This document shows positions 6,859 to 31,233 of a DNA stretch of 59,757 bases, one piece after another. Position numbers and translations under genes: made by a program. The stretch lies in contig CAMBZU010000009.1 in assembly GCA_945872355.1 (NCBI GenBank), positions 1-59,757 on the forward strand, read 5' to 3'. The first letter of the stretch is position 1; each line of letters begins with the position of its first letter. This DNA is from Chitinophaga pinensis. Lineage in GTDB: Bacteria; Bacteroidota; Bacteroidia; UBA4408. The notes beneath the pieces were generated by a model. That model was not told the origin of the DNA and did no database searches. It was given only the letters and a program-made list of their open reading frames with translations.

Positions 6859-7593
6859 ATGGAATGGTTCGAAGATTGGTTTAACTCTGCCTACTATCAC
6901 TTGCTTTACAGCCATCGTGACGAGGAAGAGGCCAATCAGTTTATGCAAAATTTGTTGACTCAGTTGGCTCCAGTGCCTCAAAGCAGGGTTTTAGATTTAG
7001 CTTGTGGCAAGGGGCGTCACGCGCAGTTTATTGCTACAAAGGGCTATGATGTAATTGGTGTGGATTTATCTGAAAATAGTATTGCTGAAGCTTTGCAGAA
7101 AAGCACCGCTAACTTGCAATTTTTTGAGCATGATATGCGCTTTCCTTTTCGTATTAACTATTTTGATTTTGTTTTTAATTTATTTACCAGTTTTGGCTAT
7201 TTCATCAACCAACGTGATGAAATAAACACCATTAAATCAATTGCCTTAGATTTGAAACCTAATGGCATGGTAGTGATTGACTTTTTTAATGCAGCCAAGG
7301 TAGCTCAAATGACTGCCAATTACAGCGAGCAAAAGGTGATTGATGGTATTGAATTTGAATGGAAAAAAAGTATTGTAAACAAAAGTGTAATTAAAGAAAT
7401 TGATGTGAGAGATGCAGGTGTAGTGCATCATTACAAGGAACAAGTACGATTGTTGGAACTTATAGATTTTGAAAATTATTTTGTGCAAGCAGGTTTAAAA
7501 TTGATAGCCACTTTTGGCGATTACAGCCTCGCACCTTTTGATGTAAATACTTCTGAAAGATTAATTATGATAGCCCAAAAACAAACCATATGA
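6859..7593 (+). CDS. Class I SAM-dependent methyltransferase
   Basis: 244 residues with a Rossmann-type SAM site: motif I VLDLACGKGRHAQFIA near residues 44-58, followed by the acidic strand end VIGVDLS. The post-I and motif II region (EHDMRFPF, then FDFVFNLFTSFGYF) resembles small-molecule methyltransferases of the Methyltransf_25 type. The substrate cannot be told from sequence. It lies between ispE and a ZIP transporter gene and overlaps the latter by 4 bases (ATGA), indicating translational coupling. Confidence 0.85.
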   Translation: MEWFEDWFNSAYYHLLYSHRDEEEANQFMQNLLTQLAPVPQSRVLDLACGKGRHAQFIATKGYDVIGVDLSENSIAEALQKSTANLQFFEHDMRFPFRINYFDFVFNLFTSFGYFINQRDEINTIKSIALDLKPNGMVVIDFFNAAKVAQMTANYSEQKVIDGIEFEWKKSIVNKSVIKEIDVRDAGVVHHYKEQVRLLELIDFENYFVQAGLKLIATFGDYSLAPFDVNTSERLIMIAQKQTI

Positions 7594-8315
7594 ATTTGTT
7601 AGAAGCCTTTATTATATTTGCTTCTGCGGTGCTGAGCGGCATGCTGTTTTTTCTGTTTCCCTGGAACAGCAATAAATTAAAACTATTGCTTTCCTTAAGT
7701 GGTGCTTATTTATTTGCCATTACGGTGTTGCATTTAATTCCTGAAATATACTCTACTGGCGATCATTTGATTGGTATTTATTTATTGGCTGGTTTCTTCC
7801 TACAAATTATTTTAGATTATTTCTCTCAGGGTATAGAGCATGGGCATATTCATGTGCAACACCATCACGGCAAAGCCATTGTGCCTTTTACCATGTTGTT
7901 AAGTTTGTGTATTCACGCATTTTTTGAAGGCATGCCAGTGGGAGGAACGCACAATGAACACACTTCGGATATGCTGGTATTTGGGATTGTGATACATAAT
8001 ATTCCAATTGCTTTGGCTTTAATGAGTTTATTATCGCAAAGCGGTGTAGCAAAATCAAGAAGTATTTTATTGTTAAGCATTTTTGCCATTATGACGCCTT
8101 TAGGAATGCTCTTAAGTGCTTATTTAAGTCATGCACAAACAATTGATTTGAGTAGTTATTACCAAAAAATTATGGCGGTAGTGATTGGTATTTTCCTACA
8201 TATTTCTACTACGATATTATTTGAGTCTTCAGAAAATCACCGCTTTAATTTGCAAAAGTTTGGTGTGATTATTTTGGGGACCTTGATGGCGCTGGGAACG
8301 GTGTTTTTGTTTTGA
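7590..8315 (+). CDS. ZIP family metal transporter
   Basis: 241 residues and roughly seven to eight hydrophobic segments. A histidine-rich loop (HGHIHVQHHHGK, about residues 85-96) lies between membrane segments. The conserved ZIP metal-site segments IHAFFEGMPVG and VIHNIPIALAL follow, supplying the His/Glu and His/Asn ligands of TM4 and TM5. ZIP proteins import zinc or related divalent metals across the inner membrane. The start overlaps the stop of the methyltransferase by 4 bases. The metal specificity is not decidable here. Confidence 0.88.
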   Translation: MNLLEAFIIFASAVLSGMLFFLFPWNSNKLKLLLSLSGAYLFAITVLHLIPEIYSTGDHLIGIYLLAGFFLQIILDYFSQGIEHGHIHVQHHHGKAIVPFTMLLSLCIHAFFEGMPVGGTHNEHTSDMLVFGIVIHNIPIALALMSLLSQSGVAKSRSILLLSIFAIMTPLGMLLSAYLSHAQTIDLSSYYQKIMAVVIGIFLHISTTILFESSENHRFNLQKFGVIILGTLMALGTVFLF

Positions 8316-8354
8316 GTTGGTAATTCTAAAAACTCGATCATTCAAATTCTAAAT

Positions 8355-8376
8355 TCCTTGTTTCTTGTTCATTATT
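8355..8376 (-). repeat. Solo copy of the 22-nt repeat that flanks the four-helix-bundle gene
   Basis: The minus-strand 22-mer here is identical to the copy at 30379-30400, and the similarity continues a little on both sides (CATTCAAATT.TAAATTCC on the plus strand). It lies in the gap between the ZIP gene and the first LRR gene, without any adjacent four-helix-bundle gene. Confidence 0.65.
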
Positions 8377-26619: not shown

Positions 26620-29600
26620 CTAATATCCCAAATTAGGTCCTAACCAACGTTCTGCATCTTCAAGGCTCATTTGCTTGCGCTTTGCATAATCTTGTACTTG
26701 ATCTTTTCTTATTTTTCCAATACCAAAATAATGCGATTGAGGATGTGAAAAATACAAACCACTTACTGCAGCTGTTGGCACCATAGCTAAACTTTCAGTT
26801 AATGTAATTCCAATTGTTTTCTCAACATCTAATAATTTCCAAATGGTGTTCTTTTCGGTATGATCGGGTTGTGCTGGATAACCTGGTGCAGGCCTAATTC
26901 CAGCATACTCTTCTTTAATTAAATCTTCATTTTTTAGTTCTTCGTTAATAGCATAGCCCCAAATTTCTTTACGCACTTTTTTATGCATTAATTCTGCAAA
27001 TGCTTCTGCTAATCTATCTGCTAAAGCTTTTATCATGATTGCACTATAATCATCATGATCGGCTTCAAAACCAGCTACGTGTGCATCAATACCAAAACCA
27101 GTAGAAAGGGCAAAGCTGCCCACATAATCTTGCTTCCCTAATGGGCAAATAAAATCGGCAAGCGCTTCATTATATTGCCCAGCAGGTTTTTTAGTTTGTT
27201 GACGCAAGGTATGAAACACAAATTCATTTTCTTCAGCATGCAAATGAACATCATCTCCTACTGCATTAGCAGGAAAAATGCCTATTACAGCTTTGGCTGT
27301 TAACCATTTTTTATTAATGATTTGTTGCAGCATTTCTTGTGCATCATTAAAAAGTTTAGTTGCTTCAACCCCTCTTTCTGTGTCATTCAATATTTTGGGA
27401 TAAGCGCCTTTTAGTTCCCAACTGTGAAAAAATGGAGTCCAATCAATGTAACTGGCTATTTCAGATAAATCATAATCTTCAAAAACTTGTGTTCCTAAAA
27501 ATTTAGGGCTTGTAATTGCTGTGTTGTTCCAATCAATAGGGAATTTATTGGCACGTGCTTCTTCAATAGTTATAAATTTATTTTGCGATTGCGCATTTTT
27601 ATTTTGTTCGCGCAAACGCTCGTAATCTTTATTCACCTCATCCATAAAGTTATTACGCAATTCATCAGAAATTAAACTGCTAGCCACCGGCACCGACTTA
27701 CTTGCATCATTAACATGCACTACAGGGCCTGAGTAATTTTGAGCAATCTTAACTGCAGTATGCACTTTAGAAGTAGTTGCACCACCAATCAATAATGGAA
27801 TTTTAAATTCTAAACGTTCCATTTCTTTTGCCACATGAACCATTTCATCGAGCGAAGGAGTTATCAATCCACTCAAACCAATCACATCAACATTGTGTTT
27901 TTTAGCTTCACTTAATATTTTATCTGCCGAAACCATGACTCCCAAATCAATTATTTCATAATTGTTGCAAGCCAATACTACACCAACTATATTCTTACCA
28001 ATATCATGCACATCGCCTTTTACAGTGGCTAATAAAATCTTACCTGCATTTGTCCTGCCATCGCCAACAATGCCTGCTAATTTATTGGCTTCCTTCTCTG
28101 CTAATAAATAAGGCTCAAGATAAGCAACCGCTTTTTTCATTACACGTGCACTTTTCACCACTTGAGGTAAAAACATTTTTCCTGCACCAAATAAATCACC
28201 AACGATATTCATACCGGCCATTAATGGGCCTTCAATAACATGCAGCGGACGACCTAACTTAACGCGAGCTTCTTCTGTATCTGCATCAATATAATCTGTC
28301 AAACCTTTTACTAAAGCATAGCTCAATCGTTCTTCTACCGAACCATTGCGCCATTCTTCCGACTTCTCTGTTTTTTCTTTAGTGATACCTTTCAATGATT
28401 CTGCATGATCTACTAATCTTTCTGTAGCATCATCTCTCCTATTCAATAAAACATCTTCAATTAATTCAAGCAAGGTTTTCTCTATATCATCATACACAAC
28501 TAATTGCGCAGGATTAACAATACCCATATCCATTCCTGCGCCAACAGCATGATACAAAAATGCAGAATGAATAGCTTCGCGCACATGATCATTACCTCTA
28601 AATGAAAATGACACATTACTAACGCCACCACTTACTTTAGCATAAGGCAAATTTTCTTTGATCCATTTTGTGGCATTAAAAAAGTCTAAGGCATTTAAGC
28701 GATGTTCTTCCATGCCGGTTGCAACAGGAAAAATATTAGGATCGAAAATAATATCTTGTGCAGTGAATTTTACTTTATCTACTAAAATATCATAAGCACG
28801 TTTACAAATTTCTTTTCTTCTTTCCAGGGTATCCGCTTGGCCCACTTCATCAAATGCCATTATAATAACAGCAGCGCCATACTGTTTTACTTTTAGTGCT
28901 TGTTCAATAAACTTTTCTTCACCTTCTTTTAATGAAATAGAGTTTACGATGGCTTTACCTTGCACACATTTTAAACCAGCTTCTATAACTGTCCATTTAC
29001 TTGAATCAATCATAATTGGCACTCTTGCAATATCAGGTTCAGAAGCAATTAAATTTAAGAAACGTGTCATACATGCTTCGCTATCTAACATGCCTTCATC
29101 CATGTTTATGTCAATTACTTGTGCCCCACCATCAACCTGATCTTTAGCAATGGCAAGTGCTTCTTCATAATTACCTTCATTAATGAGTCGTAGAAACTTT
29201 TTAGAACCAGTTACATTGGTCCTTTCCCCCACATTCATAAAATTACTTTCTGGGCGCAGCGTTACGGGCTCTAATCCGCTTAAATGCATTAAGGTATCAG
29301 GCGCAGGTTTTTTGCGAGGCTTTGCCACTTTTGCTAATTCAGCAATTCTTTTAATATGGGCAGGAGTTGTACCACAACAACCACCCACTATATTCAAAAA
29401 TCCAGCTTTTAAAAAATCTTCAATTTGATGTCCCATTTCATGGGCATCTTGATCATATTCACCAAACTGATTTGGCAAGCCTGCATTCGGATAAGCACTC
29501 ACATAGAAAGGAGCTTTTTCAGAAAGTTCTTCTAAATACGGACGCATGTCTTTAGCACCAAGTGCACAATTTAAACCAACACTCAACAAATCAACATGCG

Positions 29601-30303
29601 AAACAGAATTTAAAAAAGCTTCGGTAGTTTGTCCGGAAAGTGTTCTACCACTGGCATCTGTAATAGTACCAGAAACCATCACTGGCATGATGATATTTTT
29701 TTCCTTGCAATAATTTTGGATAGCAAATAAAGCAGCCTTCGCGTTAAGCGTATCAAAAATAGTTTCTATCAAAAGTAAATCAACACCACCATCAATAAGC
29801 CCTTTTACTTGCTCTGCGTATGCTTCAACAAGTTCATCAAAAGTAATGGCCCTGTATCCAGGATCGTTTACATTTGGTGAAAGTGATAAAGTTCTGTTTG
29901 TTGGGCCAATGGCACCAGCCACAAATGCTGCACTGCGGCCATTAGCCTCAGGCGAAGCTAAAAATTCTGCAACTGCTTCTTTGGCGATTTTTGCAGACTC
30001 ATAATTCAATTCATAAGCCAATGCTTGCATATCATAATCGGCCATGGCAATAGTTGTATCACTAAACGTATTAGTTTCAATGATATCAGCTCCAGCTTTG
30101 AGATATTCTTTATGAATAGTTTTAATAATGTGTGGTTGCGTTAGGGATAATAAATCGTTATTCCCTTTAAGATCTTTATGCCAATCGGCAAATCGCTTCC
30201 CACGATAATCTTTTTCTTCGAGTTTATATTGTTGAATCATGGTACCCATGGCACCATCGATTACTAATACACGTTTTTCTAATTCTTTGCTAATGTCTGA
30301 CAT
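26620..30303 (-). CDS. metH: Cobalamin-dependent methionine synthase
   Basis: 1,227 residues, full length with all four modules. The homocysteine/zinc domain has Cys in GLNCALGA (about residue 245) and the CC pair in VGGCCGTTP (about 307). The methyltetrahydrofolate domain begins at [14 protein letters not shown]. The cobalamin domain has the B12-ligating DVHDIGKN (about 762-769). The C-terminal SAM-activation domain contains [12 protein letters not shown]. The enzyme methylates homocysteine to methionine. A SAM-I riboswitch lies upstream on the same strand, but a four-helix-bundle gene and repeats sit between them. No cobalamin riboswitch is seen. Confidence 0.97.
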
Positions 30304-30378
30304 AGTTTTATATGATCGGTTCTAAGATGTATACGGTTTAATTTTGGGCTTTATTGGTAATAGTGAGTATAGTGAATC

Positions 30379-30400
30379 AATAATGAACAAGAAACAAGGA
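30379..30400 (+). repeat. 22-nt repeat, left boundary of the four-helix-bundle cassette
   Basis: The sequence begins AATAATGAACAAGAAAC. Its inverted partner at 30994-31015 matches at 19 of 22 positions, a direct copy at 30473-30494 matches at 21 of 22, and a perfect copy lies at 8355-8376. It falls in the gap between metH and the four-helix-bundle gene. Confidence 0.65.
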
Positions 30401-30472
30401 ATTTAAAATGTGAATGATGAAGTTGAGGTAGTATCATTGAATATTGATTGATTTTAACTAACATTGTTATTG

Positions 30473-30494
30473 AATAATGAATAAGAAACAAGGA
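30473..30494 (+). repeat. Second direct copy of the 22-nt repeat
   Basis: It differs from the copy at 30379-30400 by a single C-to-T change and is followed by the same AT-rich GAAT.TAAAAT extension. It lies 30 bases beyond the end of the four-helix-bundle gene. Confidence 0.65.
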
Positions 30495-30523
30495 ATATAA
30501 AATTTGAATTTTGAATTTGATGT

Positions 30524-30913
30524 TTATTTATCATGGTTATTTTTTTGGGCTGTTTCAATACTTTTTACCAAAATTGCTATCAACTCATTGCATTCTTTGC
30601 TTGTTTTTTCAATGAGTTGAATATTATTTGACAGTTCTGCTCGTTGTATTATTTGGAGTGAATTATAGCTTTCTCTTAATTCTTTGAGTGCAATTTTCAA
30701 TTTGTGAATAAAATCATTCCGCGATTCGGCACTTTGTGCTTCACCATAGTTGAGAGCTGGAGAAGTGCCCGATCTTAACAATTGACTGGTTAAATGTACT
30801 CCTGATTTGGTAGTATTTACAGATTCGCACACCTTGATAATTGATACAGCTAGGTTTATTAACCTCTCGTTAATATCAAATTTTCGTGCATTTTTTTCAT
30901 TCAATATTTCCAT
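30524..30913 (-). CDS. Four-helix-bundle protein (23S rRNA intervening-sequence / bAvd-like family)
   Basis: 129 residues, all alpha-helical. The conserved core is visible: QLLRSGTSPALNYGEAQSAE around residues 45-64, then DFIHKLKIALKELRES. This family includes proteins encoded in 23S rRNA intervening sequences and is structurally related to the Avd protein of diversity-generating retroelements; the cellular role is unknown and no reverse transcriptase is nearby. The gene lies between the SAM riboswitch and metH and is bracketed by inverted copies of a 22-nt repeat, so it looks like an inserted cassette. Readthrough from the riboswitch promoter would transcribe it. Confidence 0.85.
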   Translation of the reverse strand: MEILNEKNARKFDINERLINLAVSIIKVCESVNTTKSGVHLTSQLLRSGTSPALNYGEAQSAESRNDFIHKLKIALKELRESYNSLQIIQRAELSNNIQLIEKTSKECNELIAILVKSIETAQKNNHDK

Positions 30914-30993
30914 TTCAATTAAATCTATTCTAAACTATTTCTTTATCTAATAAAAATTAATCCATAAATTAATTCATTATTCTTATTCAACAT

Positions 30994-31015
30994 TTCTTGT
31001 TCCTTGATCATTATT
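30994..31015 (-). repeat. 22-nt repeat, right (inverted) boundary of the four-helix-bundle cassette
   Basis: The minus strand matches 30379-30400 at 19 of 22 positions, so the two form inverted repeats about 590 bases apart that enclose the four-helix-bundle gene. It ends 12 bases short of the T-run of the riboswitch terminator. Confidence 0.6.
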
Positions 31016-31026
31016 CAATTCACTGC

Positions 31027-31063
31027 AAAAAAAATCTCCCCTGATTTTAAAGTCAGAGGAGAT
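31027..31063 (-). terminator. Intrinsic terminator of the SAM riboswitch
   Basis: On the minus strand an 11-position stem (ATCTCCTCTGA with TCAGGGGAGAT, one A-C mismatch) is followed by eight T residues. It lies 38 bases beyond the aptamer, as expected for the expression platform: with SAM bound, transcription of the genes downstream ends here. Confidence 0.85.
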
Positions 31064-31100
31064 AAATTATGATGATTTTTGAATTCAAATTTATATTCTG

Positions 31101-31214
31101 ACTTATCTGCTTCATTATTGCTAATGAACAGGAATTGGCACCTTCTTTAAACATTGCTATTTAAAGGGTTGTCAAGGTTTCACAGGGCTTGTCCCTCCAC
31201 CTTTCTGGATAAGT
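31101..31214 (-). ncRNA. SAM-I (S-box) riboswitch aptamer
   Basis: The minus strand shows the standard S-box layout. P1 is ACTTATC paired with GATAAGT. It is followed by the conserved AGAGGTGGAGGGAC-like core (here AGAAAGGTGGAGGGAC), GCCC-TGTGAAACC, CAACCC, GGTGCCAATTCC, and a P4 hairpin TTCATTA-gcaa-TAATGAA. It senses S-adenosylmethionine. The terminator follows directly. The first gene downstream is the four-helix-bundle gene and the logical target is metH, about 0.8 kb on. Confidence 0.95.
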
Positions 31215-31233
31215 ATTTTTAAAGAACTAAGGG

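Follow-up and report, generated by a model that had tools for sequence, protein, structure and literature searches.

Short tandemly repeated repetitive (STRR) heptanucleotides occur in cyanobacteria, and REP/RAYT systems consist of a gene bracketed by inverted repeats together with gene-less copies of the repeat in the genome. A third relevant system is the intervening sequence (IVS) of 23S rRNA. In Coxiella, the IVS forms a stem whose loop holds the S23p ORF, tandem GACAGAT heptamers lie just 5' of this ORF, and RNase III cuts at heptamers (PMC4990558). Heptamer repeats have also been described as GGGAATC in Xanthomonas and TAACTGA in Beggiatoaceae, and 70 inverted heptamer pairs have been reported in Xanthomonas campestris (PMC4692102, PMC4679880). 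Finally, the Avd protein of diversity-generating retroelements works with a template RNA and a reverse transcriptase (PMC12875486). Avd, S23p-encoding IVSs and the heptamer repeats of several phyla are all known. In the open-access literature, outside which lie subscription papers and most preprints, we found no paper tying intervening-sequence protein (IVP) genes in general to flanking inverted heptads or to solo heptad arrays. These genes commonly carry the annotation "four helix bundle protein", which has no known function.

Here, we analyzed a 59,757-nucleotide stretch of Chitinophaga pinensis DNA (hereafter the window; its genome is G000), in which an IVP/S23p gene is enclosed by inverted arrays of 7-nt units. 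Like the 23S rRNA IVSs of Coxiella and Leptospira, the window element has a terminal stem whose loop holds an S23p-family ORF, enclosed by terminal inverted sequences (52-nt arms), and is inserted in the sense orientation in a host transcript. Unlike them, it occupies an mRNA leader rather than 23S rRNA, and it has locus-private heptads on both sides and gene-less arrays elsewhere. The 7-nt period, the intergenic location and the many copies are shared with STRR, GGGAATC and TAACTGA; however, those families were described without an IVP link, whereas here the arrays bracket IVP genes, including those of cyanobacterial plasmids. As in REP/RAYT, the gene is bracketed by inverted repeats and solo copies lie elsewhere in the genome, but the protein has no Y1 (HUH) transposase and the repeat is a heptad array instead of a REP palindrome. 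The fold resembles that of Avd, although no reverse transcriptase was detected in the genome. We consider it fairly probable that this locus represents a selfish element of the IVS type, located outside ribosomal RNA and consisting of a four-helix-bundle gene enclosed by inverted, private 7-nt arrays.

Table 1 Features of the window element, its host site and the solo array
Feature	Position	Strand	Evidence or remark
Solo heptad array with perfect 22-mer copy 8355-8376	8333..8376	-	3' of ORF 7590-8315
metH, leader occupied by the element	26620..30303	-	ORF of 1227 aa, taken to be metH from its sequence; orthologues with and without element
Outer 3' arm (heptads inverted with respect to the 5' arm), holding copy 30379-30400	30371..30421	+	Sequence, RNA-centroid pairing
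Inner 3' arm (heptads inverted with respect to the 5' arm), holding the 21/22 copy 30473-30494	30470..30518	+	Sequence
IVP/S23p four-helix-bundle gene, 129 aa	30524..30913	-	PF05635, TIGR02436, structure model
5' arm (gene orientation), G-rich heptad array AGTGAATTGAATAATGATCAAGGAACAAGAAATGTTGAATAAGAATAATGAA	30973..31024	-	52-nt local alignment to outer 3' arm
Intrinsic terminator of the metH SAM riboswitch	31027..31062	-	Sequence; same hairpin and T-run directly before metH in element-free relatives
SAM riboswitch of metH, lying upstream of the element	31100..31215	-	RF00162

The gene is a true member of the family of 23S-rRNA intervening-sequence proteins, matching PF05635 with 54.7 bits (cut-off 33.8) and TIGR02436 with 84.4 bits (cut-off 24). 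In a Pfam scan PF05635 was the only match, and the Y1 (HUH) transposase domain was not found. The structure model (pLDDT 90.7) is a four-helix bundle, and no catalytic motif is recognised in the protein. The model matches 2GSC (XCC0516) and 2RLD (BT_0352) with Z of 17.8 and 17.3 over 107-112 residues, and Avd (4DWL, 8UBE) ranks after these two, with a VIA-align Z of about 14 and a Foldseek TM of about 0.7. The Xanthomonas S23p (2GSC) forms a pentameric ring (PMC4990558), and by homology the window IVP is probably also homopentameric. No HEPN-type nuclease was among the 50 structure matches listed, which excludes nothing. The possibility of a defence gene was rejected, as the window IVP has no PADLOC match.

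The outer arms align with each other over 52 nt with a score of 47, against a median of 20 in controls. In the RNA of the element the predicted fold has z = -3.2, and the outer arms are paired in the centroid. The earlier note on this DNA had described 22-nt repeats around the gene, and its coordinates were all correct: the copy at 30379-30400 is identical over 22 nt to the one at 8355-8376 on the minus strand, while that at 30473-30494 is direct (21/22) and that at 30994-31015 is inverted (19/22). Allowing up to 3 mismatches, AATAATGAACAAGAAACAAG has 4 matches in the window, compared with 0.03 +/- 0.17 in shuffles. Each 22-mer is made of three heptads (TAATGAA.CAAGAAA.CAAGGAA), and the 22-mers are parts of degenerate arrays of 7-nt units that, at about 50 nt, are longer than previously stated; a tandem-repeat finder did not pick up these arrays as heptads.

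That note had also proposed a genome-wide search at this threshold and a count of flanking and solitary copies. The search returned 11 matches in G000, and the backward-read control 5, so matches with three mismatches are unreliable. With at most 2 mismatches there are 8 matches, against 0 in the control; 3 of them belong to the element of the gene and 5 stand alone, one of the latter (C5) without heptad context. Chance in AT-rich DNA as the source of the repeats was ruled out by shuffle, swapped-partner and neighbour-gene controls.

The window element forms a discrete block of about 650 nt, in sense orientation, between the terminator of a SAM riboswitch (RF00162, 86.4 bits, the gathering score being 44.4) and metH. 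It begins directly behind the T-run of the terminator, and metH lies beyond the 3' arm. This interval, and not a 23S rRNA gene, is the host site. Five relatives (G001, G003, G004, G006 and G007) lack the IVP gene, and in them a spacer of roughly 20-60 nt separates the terminator from metH. In contrast, G002, in which the N-terminal part of MetH is 95% identical to that of the window, carries an orthologous IVP at the same place (86/125 aa identical; dN 0.26, dS saturated), with different and longer arms. As the IVP gene lies behind the SAM riboswitch and terminator, it should be co-regulated with metH.

A second site lies between hmgA and HPPD. The spacer is about 50-65 nt long and free of any element in G001, G003 and G007, but it holds an IVP element with the octad GATTAGCT in G000 and one with the unit AATGTGCC in G002. 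The two IVPs are 60% identical and are reciprocal best matches among those compared. Empty sites at both metH and hmgA-HPPD, which come from other, strongly diverged species, establish a discrete presence or absence of the element and bear out the earlier proposal that gene and repeats form one inserted unit. The arms at the hmgA site score 61 and 42 within species, and 16 and 17 across G000/G002. Because the arms match within but not between these sister species, either both arms would have turned over together or two related elements would have entered one spacer, and two independent insertions could mimic a concerted change. It is the sufC and hmgA sites that give the concerted difference of the arms between species; the thiolase-site orthologues were too weak as a test of it (25 within, 20 across) and were set aside. 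In many families of the phylum, IVP elements adjoin a thiolase gene (L017, L022, L023, L031, L033 and others) or a sufC-like gene (L021, L032, L036), a recurrence reflecting either old insertions or preferred sites.

The same architecture is general. Matches to PF05635 were present in 49 of the 60 relatives searched, with up to 16 copies per genome, and most IVP genes of related genomes are flanked by inverted short-period arrays, each with its own unit. At 74 loci the 5' flank was compared with the reversed 3' flank, giving a median score of 38; swapped partners and 183 neighbouring genes each had a median of 20. For 85 IVP genes of named genomes (mostly Bacteroidota, but also Proteobacteria, Planctomycetes, Acidobacteria, Clostridia, Patescibacteria and a Methanophagales archaeon) the median was 32 against 19 for swapped partners, and for 29 IVP genes of viral contigs it was 43 against 19; annotated phage records gave no IVP match. 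Of 185 distinct loci, which come from viral contigs as well as from Bacteroidota and other phyla, 128 (69%) have inverted arms that outscore each of 100 shuffles, and 29 have direct arms that do so; in the 31% without significant inverted arms, the arms may have been lost, be too short or have decayed. IVP genes of cyanobacterial plasmids carry arms of the same type (units TAGGGAG, ACAGGGA, GTGTAGG), STRR heptamers being known from cyanobacteria. Of 17 IVP loci scanned in other lineages, none lies inside a 23S gene, and the rRNA form of the element therefore rests on the literature.

What the loci have in common is the period, the inverted layout and the strand skew; the arm unit is private to each. 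A period of 7, with 14, dominates, and some arrays have 8. A G-rich 5' arm was seen in 121 of 129 cases, and the median aligned arm is 33 nt or about five heptads, a length that also reflects the detection threshold. The IVP gene has the same direction as both of its neighbours in 137/182 cases; for adjacent genes, a shared direction was counted in 402/570. As the other IVP genes of G000 have other units, the 22-mer was rejected as a universal IVP signal. The suggestion that such a gene has its own repeat family is thus correct in that each four-helix gene has its own heptads, but the 22-mer is not common to the others of the genome.

We also compared arms and proteins across pairs of loci that share no neighbouring gene. 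The arms are similar in 2% of the pairs below 50% protein identity and in about 6% of those at 50-60%, rising to 40% at 60-70% and 64% at 70-90%. The overall rank correlation is 0.07, with 15 of 500 permutations as high; since it is so small, coupling of protein and repeat type is a property of close relatives, among which repeat type tracks protein type. This fits joint movement of the gene and its arms, and recognition of its own heptads by the IVP would be one further reading. The analogy to REP/RAYT drawn in the earlier note accordingly holds in part, for the discrete unit, the solo copies and the repeat type that follows the protein; it does not extend to the 22-mer, which the other four-helix genes of the genome do not share.

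Gene-less arrays were surveyed in two genomes only, over 860 kb of G000 and 400 kb of G043, where arrays of period 7 or 8 are frequent and from whose shuffles they are absent. Away from IVP genes they are intergenic in 34/37 cases and mostly single rather than hairpins, with an inverted partner in 7/37. They are related to the IVP genes of their own genome: among 203 IVP elements, the best match came from the same genome or genus for 9 of the 11 solo arrays of G000, and from an element of the same genome for 16 of the 26 of G043 (2.6 expected). The metH-type IVP is carried by two genomes of the family, G000 and G002, in which the 22-mer family (at most 2 mismatches) has 8 and 14 members; six other genomes of the family have 0 or 1. 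Heptads that correspond to the solo array at 8333-8376 also occur at the equivalent position of G002, but not in G001, G003 or G004. Samples of about 300 kb from four IVP-less genomes contained no real array, the one match being a run of N, while seven IVP-bearing genomes had 0 to 8 arrays per 100 kb, in a comparison that is small, has no phylogenetic correction and spans differing compositions. Solo copies, as the earlier note had supposed, therefore exist, and they track the presence of IVP genes in 22-mer counts, arm matches and genome samples.

Two loci of G002, L051 (contig C42) and L060 (C73), lie where contig ends fall inside heptad arrays; short-read assemblies thus break there, and arrays are undercounted. 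The L051 array adjoins what looks, by eye, like a cobalamin riboswitch.

One alternative is that the heptamers are passive simple repeats that arise by polymerase slippage and spread by themselves, the IVP gene being merely present and its protein uninvolved. In its favour, many bacterial genomes contain an excess of heptamers, which have been ascribed tentatively to slippage (PMC4692102, PMC4679880), and the IVP-bearing genome G016 had no array in an 80-kb sample. However, inverted copies are not a product of slippage, and this explanation has to face the lack of inverted arms at neighbouring genes, the inverted layout with a G-rich 5' arm oriented to the IVP gene, the tracking of protein type by repeat type at unrelated sites, and samples of IVP-less genomes without arrays. 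We regard it as unlikely.

The arms could also be a cis-regulatory or processing hairpin (a terminator, an attenuator or an RNase III site) that controls expression of the IVP gene, which would then be an ordinary resident and not an element. This would suit the pairing of the arms in the folded RNA, the sense orientation of IVP genes within transcription units and the retention of orthologous IVPs at the same sites in related species, but it leaves unexplained why the period is 7 nt, why solo arrays lie elsewhere, why sister species have different units at one site and why presence and absence are sporadic; such a role for the whole structure seems quite improbable. That the IVP partners a reverse transcriptase which copies the hairpin RNA into DNA is very improbable: the kinship to Avd raised in the earlier note is structural, with the same fold, but an Avd-like retro mechanism is not supported, since RVT_1 had no match in G000 or G002, both element carriers, nor in most IVP-bearing relatives (RVT_1 is present in 15/60 genomes and an IVP in 49/60), in drafts that are 96-97% complete and may have missed a gene.

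Taking the locus as an IVS-type selfish element, we hypothesize that it lives on host transcripts, where its arms would pair into a terminal RNA stem that makes the element tolerable and limits harm to the transcript. The 23S rRNA IVS, which RNase III cuts out of the transcript, may serve as a model. The S23p of Coxiella, thought to be unexpressed and decaying, counts against this reading (PMC4990558). The IVP ring would bind its own heptads, perhaps one per subunit, with which a median arm of about five heptads is compatible in a pentamer. Bound heptads, with or without the gene, could then be copied to new intergenic places. Given that no reverse transcriptase is detectable in G000 or G002 and that the protein is a plain helical bundle, our least strained guess is a DNA-level process that would use host replication or repair, not a transposase or reverse transcriptase encoded by the element.

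Judged from sequence, the results point to what may be a widespread and apparently undescribed kind of spreading genetic element. A bolder proposal, which we offer tentatively, is that IVP/S23p ring proteins are the trans-acting agents of widespread mobile elements without recognisable transposase or reverse transcriptase, recognising private 7-nt repeats and promoting the copying of arrays between intergenic sites with or without their own gene. If true, it would explain both rRNA IVSs and the orphan heptamer families STRR, GGGAATC and TAACTGA. Were IVP genes the coding members of heptad-repeat elements, two long-standing puzzles, the nature of S23p and the rRNA IVS and the origin of bacterial heptamer repeats, would merge into one testable question, and the element would be a genome parasite with a changing recognition sequence and a constant architecture.

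Some individual loci depart from the common pattern or have unusual neighbours. L041 (G008:C80 71955-72266) is an exception in having CCCGAAA arrays on both sides that are direct, not inverted. L005 (G000:C30 18375-18653), which matches the IVP family more weakly and contains an in-frame TGA, has inverted AAATTCTA arms and lies between genes that resemble transhydrogenase genes; it is, by its sequence, probably a decaying element. L107 (G001:C1 15914-16703) has two adjoining IVP genes, 95% identical, with AATTACG arms, and is a recent tandem duplication. In Nostoc edaphicum, plasmid pNe_5 carries an IVP gene (L223 2471-2839) whose inverted arms have the unit TAGGGAG; the gene lies between the two ribonucleotide reductase subunit genes, on the opposite strand to them. 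On the Anabaena sp. 90 plasmid pANA02, an IVP gene armed with inverted heptads (L229 2471-2839) separates cas6 from cas4 within a cas operon of type I-D.
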